Part shown: one piece after another, positions 25,316 through 31,169 of the stretch
How positions within the stretch are numbered: the stretch's first letter is position 1
Layout: each line of letters begins with the position of its first letter
Assembly (NCBI GenBank): GCA_031272885.1
Contig: JAISSX010000018.1
Location: forward strand, 1 to 47,184
Length of the DNA stretch: 47,184 nucleotides
Source: Bifidobacteriaceae bacterium
GTDB lineage: Bacteria > Actinomycetota > Actinomycetes > Actinomycetales > WQXJ01
Direction: 5' to 3'
Notes under the pieces: generated by a model
Seen by the model: only the letters and a program-made list of their open reading frames with translations
Database searches by the model: none
What the model was told of the DNA's origin: nothing
Program-made: the position numbers and the translations under genes

Positions 25316-27133
25316 GTGAAACAGTATTCTCATCCGGCGGTGTATGAGACCGATCCGGCCTTGAACATCACCGACTTGATGCTGGCCCGGCGGGACAAGA
25401 ACCCGGCCGCCACCATGATGGAAGAACAGACCGAGCCGGGCCATTGGGAACCTGTTTCCGCCGGTGAGGTGATTGAACGCGTGCAGCGGATCGCCAAGGG
25501 CTTGATGGCGTTGGGTGTGGGCCACGGCGACACGGTAGGCATCATGGGCCGCACCTCGATCGAATGGACCTTGATCGACTTGGCGCTGTTTTACATCGGC
25601 GGCGCCGGCGTGCCCATCTACGAGACTTCGTCGGACGAACAGGCCGCCTGGATTGTGGCGGACAGCGGCATGGTGGCCGCAGTGGCCGAATTGGACCGGC
25701 ACGCCGACGTCATCCGCGCCGTGCCAGGCTGGGACAAGCCGCTCTGGCTGCTACAGGACGGCGGCCTGGATCAGATCATGGCCCTGGGTGAATCGGTGTC
25801 CGATGACGCGTTGGAGGCCCGCCGTGTGGCCGTCAAGGGTGACGACCTGGCGGCCATCATCTACACCTCTGGCACAACGGGCCGGCCAAAGGGCGTCGAA
25901 CTGACGCACACCAACTTTGTCACTTCGGCCCGCAACGCCGTGGTCGAGTTGTTCCACATCTGCGGCACCGGTTCGCGCTGCCTGCTGTTCTTGCCGATGG
26001 CGCACGTCTTCGCCCGCATGATCAACGTCATCGCCCTGTCCTCCCCCAGCGTCTTGGGTTACGCACCGTCCATCGCCACGCTGACGGATGACCTGCAGTC
26101 GTTCCAGCCCACGTACCTGCTGGTGGTGCCGCGGGTGCTGGAGAAGGTCTACAACTCGGCCGAACAGAAGGCCGGCCACGGCGCCAAGCTGAAGATCTTC
26201 CGCTGGGCCGCCAAGGTGGCCATCATTTCGTCGCGCGAACTGGATTCCCGCGGCGGCCTGACGCCGGTCCGCAAGGTGCAATACGCCATCGCCCGCCAGC
26301 TTGTCTACAAGAAGCTGACCAAGACGATGGGTGGCCGCCTGACCCAGGCAGTTTCGGGCGGGGCGCCGCTGGGTGAGCGGCTGGCCCACTTCTTCCGCGG
26401 CATCGGGCTGACGGTCTACGAGGGCTACGGCCTGACCGAGACGACAGCGCCGACGGCGGTCAACCCGGAGCGGCCCAACAAGATCGGCACCGTGGGGCGG
26501 CCGCTGCCGGGCCAGTCCGTGGCCGTGGCGGACGATGGCGAGATCCTGGCCAAGGGGCCGCACATCTTCCGCGGCTACCGGGGTAACCCGGAGGCGACGG
26601 CGCAAGCCATCGAGGACGGCTGGTTCCACACCGGCGATGTCGGCACGTTGGACGATGACGGCTTCGTCACCATTACGGGCCGGCGCAAGGAGATCATTGT
26701 CACGGCTAGCGGCAAGAATGTGGCCCCCGCCATCCTGGAGGACCGGCTGCGCGGCCACCCGCTGGTGTCGCAGGTCGTGGTGGTGGGCGACGGCCGGCCG
26801 TTCATCGGCGCCTTGGTGACCCTGGACTACGAGATGCTGCCGGGGTGGCTGGTGGCGCACGGCAAGTCGCCGTTGACGCCGGAGCAGGCCCTGATCGACC
26901 CGGACATCAGGGCCTCGCTGGAACGGGCCGTGGAACGGACCAACAAGGCCGTTTCGCGCGCCGAGTCGATCCGCGAGTTCCGCCTCATCCCGGGCGACTT
27001 CACCGAAGCCAACGGCTACCTGACGCCGTCGCTGAAGGTCAAGCGGTCCCTGGTCTTGAAGGATTTCGCCGGCGAGGTGGACGCGCTCTACGCCGAGGCC
27101 GCCAAGCGCCGCAGCGCCGAAAGCGCCAGGTAG
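25316..27133 (+). CDS. Long-chain fatty-acid-CoA ligase (AMP-forming)
   Basis: This 605-residue ANL-superfamily enzyme resembles FadD15. It activates a fatty acid as acyl-AMP and transfers it to CoA. Motifs in order: AMP-binding loop [18 protein letters not shown] (about 178-195), [29 protein letters not shown] and the C-terminal hinge [17 protein letters not shown]. No transmembrane segment is obvious. GTG at 25316 gives [11 protein letters not shown]; a TTG 27 nt upstream is in frame but unlikely. Its last 46 nt overlap the convergent aroQ gene. Chain length specificity cannot be read here. Confidence 0.92.
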
Positions 27134-27567
27134 TAGGAGCCGAAGCCGAAGCCGGCGATGGTGCCGGTGGCGACCGCGCTGATGACCGAGGTCTGCCGGA
27201 ACTCCTCGCGCGCCGCGGGGTTGGAGATGTGCACCTCGATCACCACGGGCACTTGCGCCACGGCGTCCCGCAACGCGTAGGAGTAGTGCGTGAAGGCGGC
27301 CGGGTTCAGCACCACCGGAATGGCGGCGTCGGCGGCATCGTGCAACCAGGCCACCAACTGGGCCTCGGAGTCGGTCTGCCGCACGTCCACCTCGAAACCC
27401 AGCCGGGCGCCCCAGCGGCGGCAGTCCGCCTGCAGCGCCCCGAAGTCGGCCTTGCCGTAAACCTCCGGTTCGCGGGCGCCCAGGCGGCCCAGGTTCGGTC
27501 CGTTCAACACCCAGACCTTGGTGATGGCGGCGGCTTCGGGGCCGGCGGCGTGGGCAGCAGCGGTCAC
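27088..27567 (-). CDS. aroQ: 3-dehydroquinate dehydratase, type II
   Basis: This 159-residue enzyme dehydrates 3-dehydroquinate to 3-dehydroshikimate. Type II motifs: LNGPNLGRLGAREPEVYG (catalytic Arg and Tyr region), NPAAFTHYSYALRDA (His) and EVHISNPAAREEFR. GTG at 27567 overlaps the aroB stop (GTGA) and leaves a 20-residue Ala-rich leader before the core. The enzyme is normally a cytosolic dodecamer. It is last in the minus-strand aro run, and its end overlaps the acyl-CoA synthetase gene by 46 nt. Confidence 0.95.
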   Translation of the reverse strand: MTAAAHAAGPEAAAITKVWVLNGPNLGRLGAREPEVYGKADFGALQADCRRWGARLGFEVDVRQTDSEAQLVAWLHDAADAAIPVVLNPAAFTHYSYALRDAVAQVPVVIEVHISNPAAREEFRQTSVISAVATGTIAGFGFGSYYLALSALRRLAASA

Positions 27568-28778
27568 AGGGGCGCCCGCCATCCGGCCATCTGGCGGGCC
27601 CGTTCGGCCGCCTCCTCGTCCACCGGCGGCACATAGGGCACCTGGCCGTAGGGGTTGTCCAGGGTGGGAGCGGTGGGGTACGGCAGGGTCGACTGCGACG
27701 AGGCTACCGCTTGGTAGGCCTCCTCCAGCACGTCTTCGGCGATGTCCTCCACCACCAGCGGCTTGCGCACGTCTTCCAGCAGCACCATGCGCCGGGTACG
27801 GCCCACGTTCTTCTTGTCGCGCCGCATGGCCTGCCAAAGGGCCTCCCAGCGCCCGGCCCGGTAGCTGGTGGGCAGGCCCACCGAACTGAGGATCTCGCGG
27901 TGTAGGCCCAGCAGCGACGGGTCCATCAGGCCGGACCGCACGGCGACCTCGGCCGCGAACACCATGCCCACCGAGACGGCGTTACCGTGCAGCCAGCCGT
28001 ACTGTTCCACCTGTTCGATGGCGTGGCCAAAGGTGTGGCCGTAGTTCAAGATGGCGCGCACGCCGCCTTCACGGGGGTCCTCCCCCACTACGTCCGCCTT
28101 GACCGTGACGGCCCGGCGGATCAGTTCCGGCAGCAGCGGGCCGGCTGGGTTGAGGGTTTCCTGGGGCCCGGACCAGACCACGTCCAAGATGGCCGGGTCC
28201 GCGATCAGGCCGGCCTTGATAATCTCCGCCATGCCGCTGACCAGGTGTTCTCTGGGCAACGTAGTCAACACATCAGGGTCGCAAACGACGGCCGTGGGCT
28301 GGTGGAACACACCCACCAGGTTCTTGCCCTGCGGCAGGTTGATGGCCGTCTTGCCGCCGATCGCGGCATCGACCATGGCCAGCAGCGTGGTGGGCACGTG
28401 GAGCACGCGGACGCCGCGGCCCCAGGTGGCGGCCACGAACCCGGCCAGGTCGGTGGTGGCGCCGCCACCCACGGCGATGATGCCGCCGCCACGGTTGGCG
28501 CCCACCTCGGCCAGGCGCTCCCAGGCGGCTTCGGCCACCGCCACCGTCTTGGCCTCTTCGCCTTCGGGCACCGCCAGCAGTTGCACCTCCATGCCGTATT
28601 CCCGCAGGTAGTCCGTCAGGGTCAGCACATAGGCGGAGACGGCCGGCGGGAACATCACCATGGCTTGCGTCCAGTCCACCGGCATATAGTCGAGCAACCG
28701 GCTCAAGGTGCCGTTGCCCACGGTCACCTGGTAGGGCGGGTCAACCTTGACCGTGATGCTGGTAGGTGGCTCGTCCAC
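27564..28778 (-). CDS. aroB: 3-dehydroquinate synthase
   Basis: The product cyclises DAHP to 3-dehydroquinate using NAD+ and a divalent metal. It has 404 residues, about 40 more than usual, from a Pro/Glu-rich C-terminal tail after VEEAYQAVASS-like sequence. Core motifs: GEEAKTVAVAEAAWERL, GGGATTDLAGFVAATWGRG (NAD loop), PTTLLAMVDAAIGGKTAIN and the metal ligands in NYGHTFGHAIE and WLHGNAVSVGM. GTG at 28778 is chosen for its strong AAGGAGG. The frame continues open upstream into an aroK remnant, so a longer in-frame product is possible but unlikely. Confidence 0.95.
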   Translation of the reverse strand: MDEPPTSITVKVDPPYQVTVGNGTLSRLLDYMPVDWTQAMVMFPPAVSAYVLTLTDYLREYGMEVQLLAVPEGEEAKTVAVAEAAWERLAEVGANRGGGIIAVGGGATTDLAGFVAATWGRGVRVLHVPTTLLAMVDAAIGGKTAINLPQGKNLVGVFHQPTAVVCDPDVLTTLPREHLVSGMAEIIKAGLIADPAILDVVWSGPQETLNPAGPLLPELIRRAVTVKADVVGEDPREGGVRAILNYGHTFGHAIEQVEQYGWLHGNAVSVGMVFAAEVAVRSGLMDPSLLGLHREILSSVGLPTSYRAGRWEALWQAMRRDKKNVGRTRRMVLLEDVRKPLVVEDIAEDVLEEAYQAVASSQSTLPYPTAPTLDNPYGQVPYVPPVDEEAAERARQMAGWRAPL

Positions 28779-28849: not shown

Positions 28850-29000
28850 GGGTCTCTCCCAGGTCAAGGGTAGCGATTTGTTGGACGATGGCGCGTATCG
28901 GCTTGCCGTCCGTGTCCACCATCACGGCGGTCAGGCCGCAGTACACCGGTTAACGTTTGGCCAGGTGGGCGCGCCGTGTCGTCCCCAGGCGAGGCGGCCG
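28850..29000 (-). pseudogene. aroK: C-terminal remnant of shikimate kinase gene (aroK)
   Basis: The usual aroK position between aroC and aroB holds only about 150 nt. Read on the minus strand this gives RRAHLAKR-stop-PVYCGLTAVMVDTDG, then KPIRAIVQQIATLDL. This lines up with the shikimate kinase C-terminus (pattern RA-x-x-x-KRAPLY...VDT...VVRHI) with an in-frame TAA where the family has one residue. The P-loop, the shikimate-binding core and the LID are all missing. After LDL the frame runs without stop into aroB. This is what remains after a deletion; it cannot encode a kinase. Confidence 0.68.
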
Positions 29001-29001
29001 A

Positions 29002-30174
29002 TCACAGCAGGGTGGGCGGTGTGGCCGTACGGTAGGCGGCCAGGTTCCGCCGCACCTCTGCCACTGTGTCCCCGCCGAACTTCTCCAGGGCGGCCTGGGC
29101 CAACACCAGCGCCACCATCGCCTGGCAGACCACGGCCGCCGCCGGCACGGCCGTCACATCCGATCTTTGGTGGTGGGCCGGCGCCGCCTGGCCGGTCCTC
29201 GTGTCGATGGTGGGCAGGGCGTTGGGCAGGGTTGGAATGGGTTTCATGGCCGCGCGGATGACGATCGGCTCGCCGTTGGACATGCCGCCTTCGATGCCGC
29301 CCGCGTTGTTGGATAGGCGCGCGATGCGCCCCGCCACGCTGGTGATCGGGTCGTGTACCTGGGAGCCAGGCCGCTGGGCCACGCCGAAGCCAAGGCCGAT
29401 CTCCACTCCTTTGATGGCCGGCACGCCCATCAGGCCCCCCGCCAGGGCGGCGTCGAGCCGCCGGTCGGCCTGCACATGCGAGCCCAGGCCCACCGGCACG
29501 CCGTAGGCGATCACCTCGACCAGGCCACCGACCGTGTCGCCGGCCGCCTTGACCTGGTCGATGTGCGCCACCATGGCGGCTTCGGCCGCCCGGTCCAGGG
29601 TGCGGACCGGGCTGGCGTCCAGCGCCGCCACGTCTTCCGGCGTCGGCGCTGGGCCCCCGGCCTCGACGCCGCCCAAGTTGACCACGTGGCTGACCAGGCC
29701 CACTCCCAGCGCCTGCTGCAAGAAGGCCTCCGCGCAGGCGCCTAGCGCCACCCGCGTGGCCGTTTCACGGGCGCTGGACCGCTCCAGGATGGCCCTGGCA
29801 TCAGCCTGGGCGTATTTGACCATGCCCGGCAGGTCGGCGTGGCCCGGCCGCGGGCGCGTCAGCGCCTCGGCCCGGGCCGTGTCCGGCACTTCTGCCGGGT
29901 CGGCGCTCATGACGGCCTCCCACTTGGGCCATTCCGAGTTGGCCACTTCAACCGCCACGGGTGCCCCGGTGGTCAGCCCGCGCCACAGGCCCCCCAACAC
30001 GCGTACTTGGTCCTGTTCGAAACCCATTCGGGCGCCCCGGCCGTAGCCCAGCCGCCGGCGCTCAAGGGCCGCCGCGACATCGGCCGTCGTGATGGCGACG
30101 CCGGCCGGCAGGCCGTCCAGTATCCCCACAAGGGCGGGGCCGTGCGATTCACCGGCGGTCAACCATCTGAGCAT
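29002..30174 (-). CDS. aroC: Chorismate synthase
   Basis: This FMN-dependent enzyme converts EPSP to chorismate. It has 390 residues. Motifs: [16 protein letters not shown] at the start, [35 protein letters not shown] and [14 protein letters not shown], with the late [16 protein letters not shown] at 30174 is chosen because it gives the family N-terminus and has GGGGG just upstream; ATG at 30183 is the alternative. It lies downstream of a 124-bp palindromic element that separates it from aroE, and just upstream of the aroK remnant. Confidence 0.96.
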
Positions 30175-30230: not shown

Positions 30231-30354
30231 CCCCCTTCCTCGCGAGAGTACGGTTATGTAGTTCGATCCCGAGAGAGTAATTGCGTTTACGCAGGTCGGA
30301 GCGTTGGGCCAATTGAGCCGTAGCTACACAACCGTACTTTCGCGAGGGAAGGGG
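30231..30354. repeat. 124-bp palindromic element between aroE and aroC
   Basis: Arms 30231-30261 and 30324-30354 (31 bp each) are inverted repeats with 27 of 31 bases matching; the conserved core is AACCGTACT...TCGCGAGG. The 62-nt centre has its own small palindrome GCGTTTACGC (30283-30292) and a partial third copy of the core (CGAGAGAGTA). The centre is AT-richer than its neighbours. There is no ORF inside. The layout resembles a MITE or other interspersed palindrome. It ends 2 nt before the aroE stop. Confidence 0.85.
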
Positions 30355-30356
30355 CG

Positions 30357-31169
30357 TCAGAGGGCGGCGCGCATGGCGGCCAAGGGAGCGGGCAGGCCGG
30401 TCATCAGGCGCACCTGCTCGGCCGCCTGGTGCAACAGCATGGTCAGGCCGCTAACCACGGTGCCGCCGGCCGCCGCCCAGGCGCCCGCCAGCGCCGAAGG
30501 CCACGGATCATAAGCCACATCCAGCAGCACGCCGGGCGCTCGCACCACCGTCAGGCTGTCGGCCGCCCGCGGCGGCAAGGTGGACACGGTCAGGTCGCCG
30601 GCCCACCCCACGGCGCCCTCGCCGGGCCACGCCCGGAAATCGAACTTCACACCCATCCGCAGGGCGGCCGCCATCAGGGACCGCGCCCGCGCCGTCGACC
30701 GCACGTAAACCTCGATCTGTCCGGCCCCCAGTTCGCTCACGGCCGCCAGGGCCGACGCCGCCGTCGCACCGCCGCCCAGAATGGTCACCCGGTCAAACCC
30801 GGCCGGCCGGGCGGCATCGGCCACCGCCTCCCTCACGGCCTGCACGATGCCGTACACGTCCGTGTTGGTGCCGACCCGTCCACCCGGGGTGAACAGCACG
30901 GTGTTGACGGCCCCAACCGCCTGCGCCAGCGGCTCCACGTGGTCTACCAGCGGCATCACGGCATGCTTCAGCGGCATGGTCAGCGACAGACCGGCCCATT
31001 CGGGGCCTAATCCGTCCAGAAAGCCCACCAGCCCGGCCTCGTCCACATCGAAGGCGCCATACGCCCACGTGTCGGCCAAACCCAAGGCCTGATAGGCCGC
31101 CCGGTGCAGCCGGGGTGACAGCGAATGGGCCACTGGGTGGCCCAGCACGGCCGCCCGGTGCAGCGTCAC
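30357..31169 (-). CDS. aroE: Shikimate dehydrogenase
   Basis: This 270-residue NADP-dependent enzyme reduces 3-dehydroshikimate to shikimate. Shikimate-site motifs [13 protein letters not shown], the catalytic Lys in [11 protein letters not shown] (about residue 66) and NTD in GAVNTVLF...GTNTDVYG are intact. The nucleotide loop is [10 protein letters not shown], and the C-terminal [12 protein letters not shown] is standard. GTG at 31169 overlaps the mltG stop (GTGA). Its own stop lies beside the palindromic element, so the run-on to aroC must cross that structure. Confidence 0.94.

Follow-up and report, generated by a model that had tools for sequence, protein, structure and literature searches.

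The window, by which we mean the whole stretch of 47,184 nucleotides analysed here, carries part of genome G000, and its minus strand contains a cluster of chorismate pathway genes with the order aroE-aroC-aroK-aroB-aroQ, in which aroK is reduced to a relic. As the first-pass annotation had stated, the other four genes are intact, aroE, aroC and aroB according to profile matches and aroQ according to our reading of its translation (VWVLNGPNLGRLG...). The features of the cluster are given in Table 1. Between aroC and aroE we also observed an imperfect palindrome (window positions 30231-30354; 31-nt arms, 87% complementary, 62 nt apart), which is one of at least 40 copies, scattered genome-wide at 74-84% identity, of a sequence family about 110-119 bp in length and resembles a small non-autonomous inverted-repeat element.

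Table 1. Features of the aro cluster, in window coordinates
Feature	Position	Strand	Basis
aroE, shikimate dehydrogenase, intact	30357..31169	-	NF001311, 282.7 bits
aroC, chorismate synthase, intact	29002..30174	-	NCBIfam TIGR00033, 405.8 bits
Probable former aroK GTG start, overlapping the aroC stop as in the congener	29003..29005	-	Alignment with G001, inference
aroK relic, C-terminal third of the shikimate kinase gene of the operon, decayed	28856..28995 (ends approximate)	-	Family profile and congener DNA
In-frame TAA within the relic, adjoining the conserved (K/Q)R-x-PVY segment	28950..28952	-	Sequence reading
aroB, 3-dehydroquinate synthase, intact	27564..28778	-	TIGR01357, 355 bits
aroQ, type II 3-dehydroquinate dehydratase, intact	27088..27580 (start approximate)	-	ORF translation by reading

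The frame that remains between the aroC stop at 29002 and aroB reads ...TTRRAHLAKR*PVYCGLTAVMVDTDGKPIRAIVQQIATLD..., while the C-termini of the operonic AroKs used for comparison read WRELMAKRRPVYEGLADAIVQVDDLTPDDAAGRIAALL in G007 and WRAQMAQRGPVYRRLAQVVVPVDGLTPPQIAARIEAAV in G001, the sole congener compared. Scored with a profile derived from 12 operonic AroKs of family relatives, G000 not among them, the gap reached 19.3 bits in the relic frame, and no other place in the window, translated in all six frames, gave a higher-scoring domain. The best score among 1000 dinucleotide-preserving shuffles, read in six frames each, was 9.6 bits. At the DNA level, the gap matched the C-terminal third of aroK, intact in the congener, at 65 of 95 bases (68%; E 8e-5 in the congener's contig), with agreement in both strand and place, the two aroK sequences being collinear. 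Generic Pfam and NCBIfam models did not detect the fragment alone, so close relatives were required to find it; pairwise alignments of its protein sequence, taken singly, were weak as well, and several did no better than shuffles, so that the family profile and the congener DNA comparison were needed. The six-frame comparison with AroKs proposed in the first-pass annotation thus gave a significant match by way of the family profile, confirming that the gap holds a decayed C-terminal piece of aroK without a P-loop, and the in-frame TAA claimed there was located as well. The fragment is short and falls under the threshold of the general models, as might be the case if the likeness were accidental or the assembly at fault, but its profile score is twice that of the best shuffle, with strand and order as expected, it is similar in DNA to the congener's aroK in the same place, and its sequence in the congener alignment is decayed and not just truncated, all of which make such an artefact very unlikely.

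Compared with the congener's aroK, about 350 bp are missing, from just past the start codon (around codon 4) to around codon 120, and this deletion removed the P-loop, the DTD motif, the first shikimate-binding arginine, the GGG motif and the lid. The GTGA overlap (29005-29002) of the aroC stop with the aroK start seems to have been kept, as in the congener, and the alignment extends the relic back to approximately 28995 by means of one extra base close to its 5' end; of the old aroK stop there was no trace. Both homology to aroK at its ancestral place, seen with the profile and in the DNA alignment, and disabling changes (N-terminal loss, the TAA, the extra base and the lost stop) thus identify the relic as an aroK pseudogene. 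The relic frame is open from 28949 into aroB with no stop, which would be compatible with translation of the relic as an N-terminal extension of AroB with a new role. Against this, aroB begins at a GTG of its own (28778), preceded by a strong ribosome-binding site (AAGGAGGG, read from the sequence), which makes a fused product unlikely, while the relic GTG at 28946 had no ribosome-binding site by eye and the AroBs of relatives carry no such extension; we regard an extension with a new role as highly improbable. Since aroK and aroB are separate frames in family relatives, the open frame is better explained as a by-product of decay, and the relic is presumably untranslated.

The first-pass annotation had argued that deletion of the operonic aroK would leave the pathway in need of a kinase elsewhere, and the genome-wide search for aroK and aroA that it proposed bore this out. 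In G000 (2.95 Mb, 95% complete) we found one strong SKI match of 200 aa at G000:C55:17026-17625, a single-domain AroK in an open frame without stops, and thus neither the fused form nor the GHMP-type kinase that had been offered as alternatives. It matched the SKI family PF01202 with about 132 bits (132.3-132.6) over positions 1-157 of 159 and aligned full-length with the Mycobacterium tuberculosis shikimate kinase, with all active-site motifs kept: GPMGAGKST (P-loop), HDTDD (DTD), YFRDLE (FR), ALGGGAP (GGG), KRPMLSG (RP-L) and RRPAY (R-P-Y). Its best NCBIfam score was to the kinase half of NF010627 (bifunctional AroKB). A second SKI match, on contig C81, reached 25.7 bits and covered the N-terminal two thirds only; weak matches of this type are seen repeatedly in genomes that have a clear AroK. 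The dedA gene and the fructose-bisphosphate aldolase-like gene that neighbour the C55 kinase are 92-93% identical to those of the congener, indicating that the contig is not a contaminant and belongs to the G000 organism. The kinase gene and dedA overlap tail to tail, with a penicillin-binding protein gene also present there (L062 8970-10416, G000:C55), while beyond dedA pyrE is found nearby in the congener (L205 5600-7348, G001:C205) and in other family members, which places the C55 kinase at a synteny break. No sigma-70-like promoter was found at the C55 aroK.

Judging from its sequence, the C55 kinase is presumably active, and the predicted enzyme almost certainly performs the shikimate phosphorylation step. 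Class II DAHP synthase and AroA were also found in G000, a second EPSP-synthase-like gene being MurA, and the chorismate pathway looks complete. The operonic aroK is certainly dead, as it would be if chorismate synthesis had been lost, an outcome that the first-pass annotation had left standing, and the relic were the first sign of pathway decay; with an intact AroK at C55 and every other step present with intact frames, we consider this loss extremely improbable.

The comparison of the aroC-aroB gap in relatives, likewise proposed in the first-pass annotation, revealed an intact aroK in place between the two genes in the congener, which is only 69% complete, so that a second aroK copy may lie in its missing part. 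In 12 of 18 family genomes aroK adjoins aroC, with aroB seen behind it in 11 of those 12, while in five (G000, G004, G008, G010 and G012) it lies on another contig with different neighbours. No aroK was seen in the remaining genome, G006; a weak kinase-like match there was rejected as aroK because, when translated, it proved to belong to an AAA-type ATPase. No recognisable aroK remnant was present in the aroC-aroB gap of G004, G010 or G012 (59 bp separate the aligned parts in G010), and the G008 assembly had no aroB, so that among the off-operon genomes whose gap was seen a recognisable remnant occurs only in G000. None of the 18 family genomes, the assemblies of which are incomplete, was seen to carry aroK both inside and outside the operon. 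In another family of the same order, G222 carries one operonic and one off-operon aroK (L216 and L217), and a two-copy intermediate therefore exists. Another genome of the order, G018, has two tandem aroK-like genes between aroC and aroB (L218 1232-2436), the first of which has an altered P-loop (APPGVDVDAI) and may be non-catalytic.

Phylogenetic analysis placed the operonic AroKs of the family in a supported clade without the off-operon ones (100/90 and 99/88), and a sister relationship of the C55 kinase to the congener's operonic AroK was rejected (p-AU 0.005). The five off-operon AroKs grouped together with weak support (74/91). These trees indicate that the C55 kinase is of a different AroK lineage and is not the congener's operonic gene moved, and 'relocated aroK', one of the options in the first-pass annotation, was right in that an intact AroK is present elsewhere but is too simple as a description of its origin. 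A translocation of the operonic aroK itself to C55, leaving its 3' piece behind, would agree with the loss of one copy in the operon and the presence of another at a synteny break, and a clade of the C55 kinase with all operonic AroKs was not formally rejected (p-AU 0.14); against it stand the exclusion of off-operon AroKs from the operonic clade and the rejected sister relationship, and we consider it very unlikely. A clade of all family AroKs, off-operon and operonic, was not rejected either (p-AU 0.58), so that an old duplication is a possible source of the C55 kinase. The off-operon aroK genes had no neighbours in common between genomes, and since these neighbours differ, shared position cannot separate an old duplication from a transfer.

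Four changes are required to explain the off-operon state on the AroB+AroC tree, and well-supported branches force three of these, showing that loss of aroK from the operon has recurred in the family. We tentatively raise the possibility, which we rate below even, that a second aroK lineage in the family repeatedly displaced the operonic copy, its chromosomal position differing from lineage to lineage. If true, a gene of central metabolism would be undergoing exchange or differential sorting among close relatives. The recurrence of the change in a small family would give a usable case for asking why membership of aroK in the operon is dispensable.

Taken together, our results make it very probable that the operonic aroK of G000 was deleted down to a non-coding remnant and that a second, ordinary shikimate kinase encoded elsewhere, at C55, took over its step. 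We infer that gain of the second kinase came before loss of the operonic gene: the second aroK would have been present before the deletion, by old duplication or transfer, and would have rendered the copy in the operon dispensable; a single deletion of about 350 bp, reaching from the start region to around codon 120, would then have removed most of the operonic gene, and subsequent point decay would have produced the present remnant. An apparent hole in an essential pathway is thereby settled, and the locus offers a readable snapshot of gene displacement in which the old copy is dead and has not yet vanished. It also cautions that a dead gene in an operon does not equal a broken pathway or an auxotrophic organism.

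In a partial literature search we found no paper on this family or on this case; three known systems come closest. In bifunctional AroKB fusions (NF010627, NF010556) the likeness lies in the aroK-aroB neighbourhood and, in G000, in the relic frame open into aroB, but in the family relatives the two genes are separate frames. The archaeal GHMP-type shikimate kinase is a non-orthologous replacement (Daugherty et al. 2001, according to its citation in PMC3018139); as in that case, the usual shikimate kinase gene is absent from its place and another enzyme performs the step, while in G000 the step falls to an ordinary AroK with a P-loop, a member of the SKI family. The third system is xenologous gene displacement, a term defined in PMC1274311, where mosaic operons are referred to Omelchenko et al. 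(2003): a central-metabolism gene gives way to a homologue from a different lineage and its ancestral copy disappears, and in G000, too, the surviving gene is of another lineage than the lost one. In contrast to that process, the substitute in G000 lies outside the operon, its origin may be either transfer or old duplication, and the old copy can still be read in a remnant. The G000 case is thus a gene displacement that left a pseudogene behind; the instance is new, and the process is a known one.
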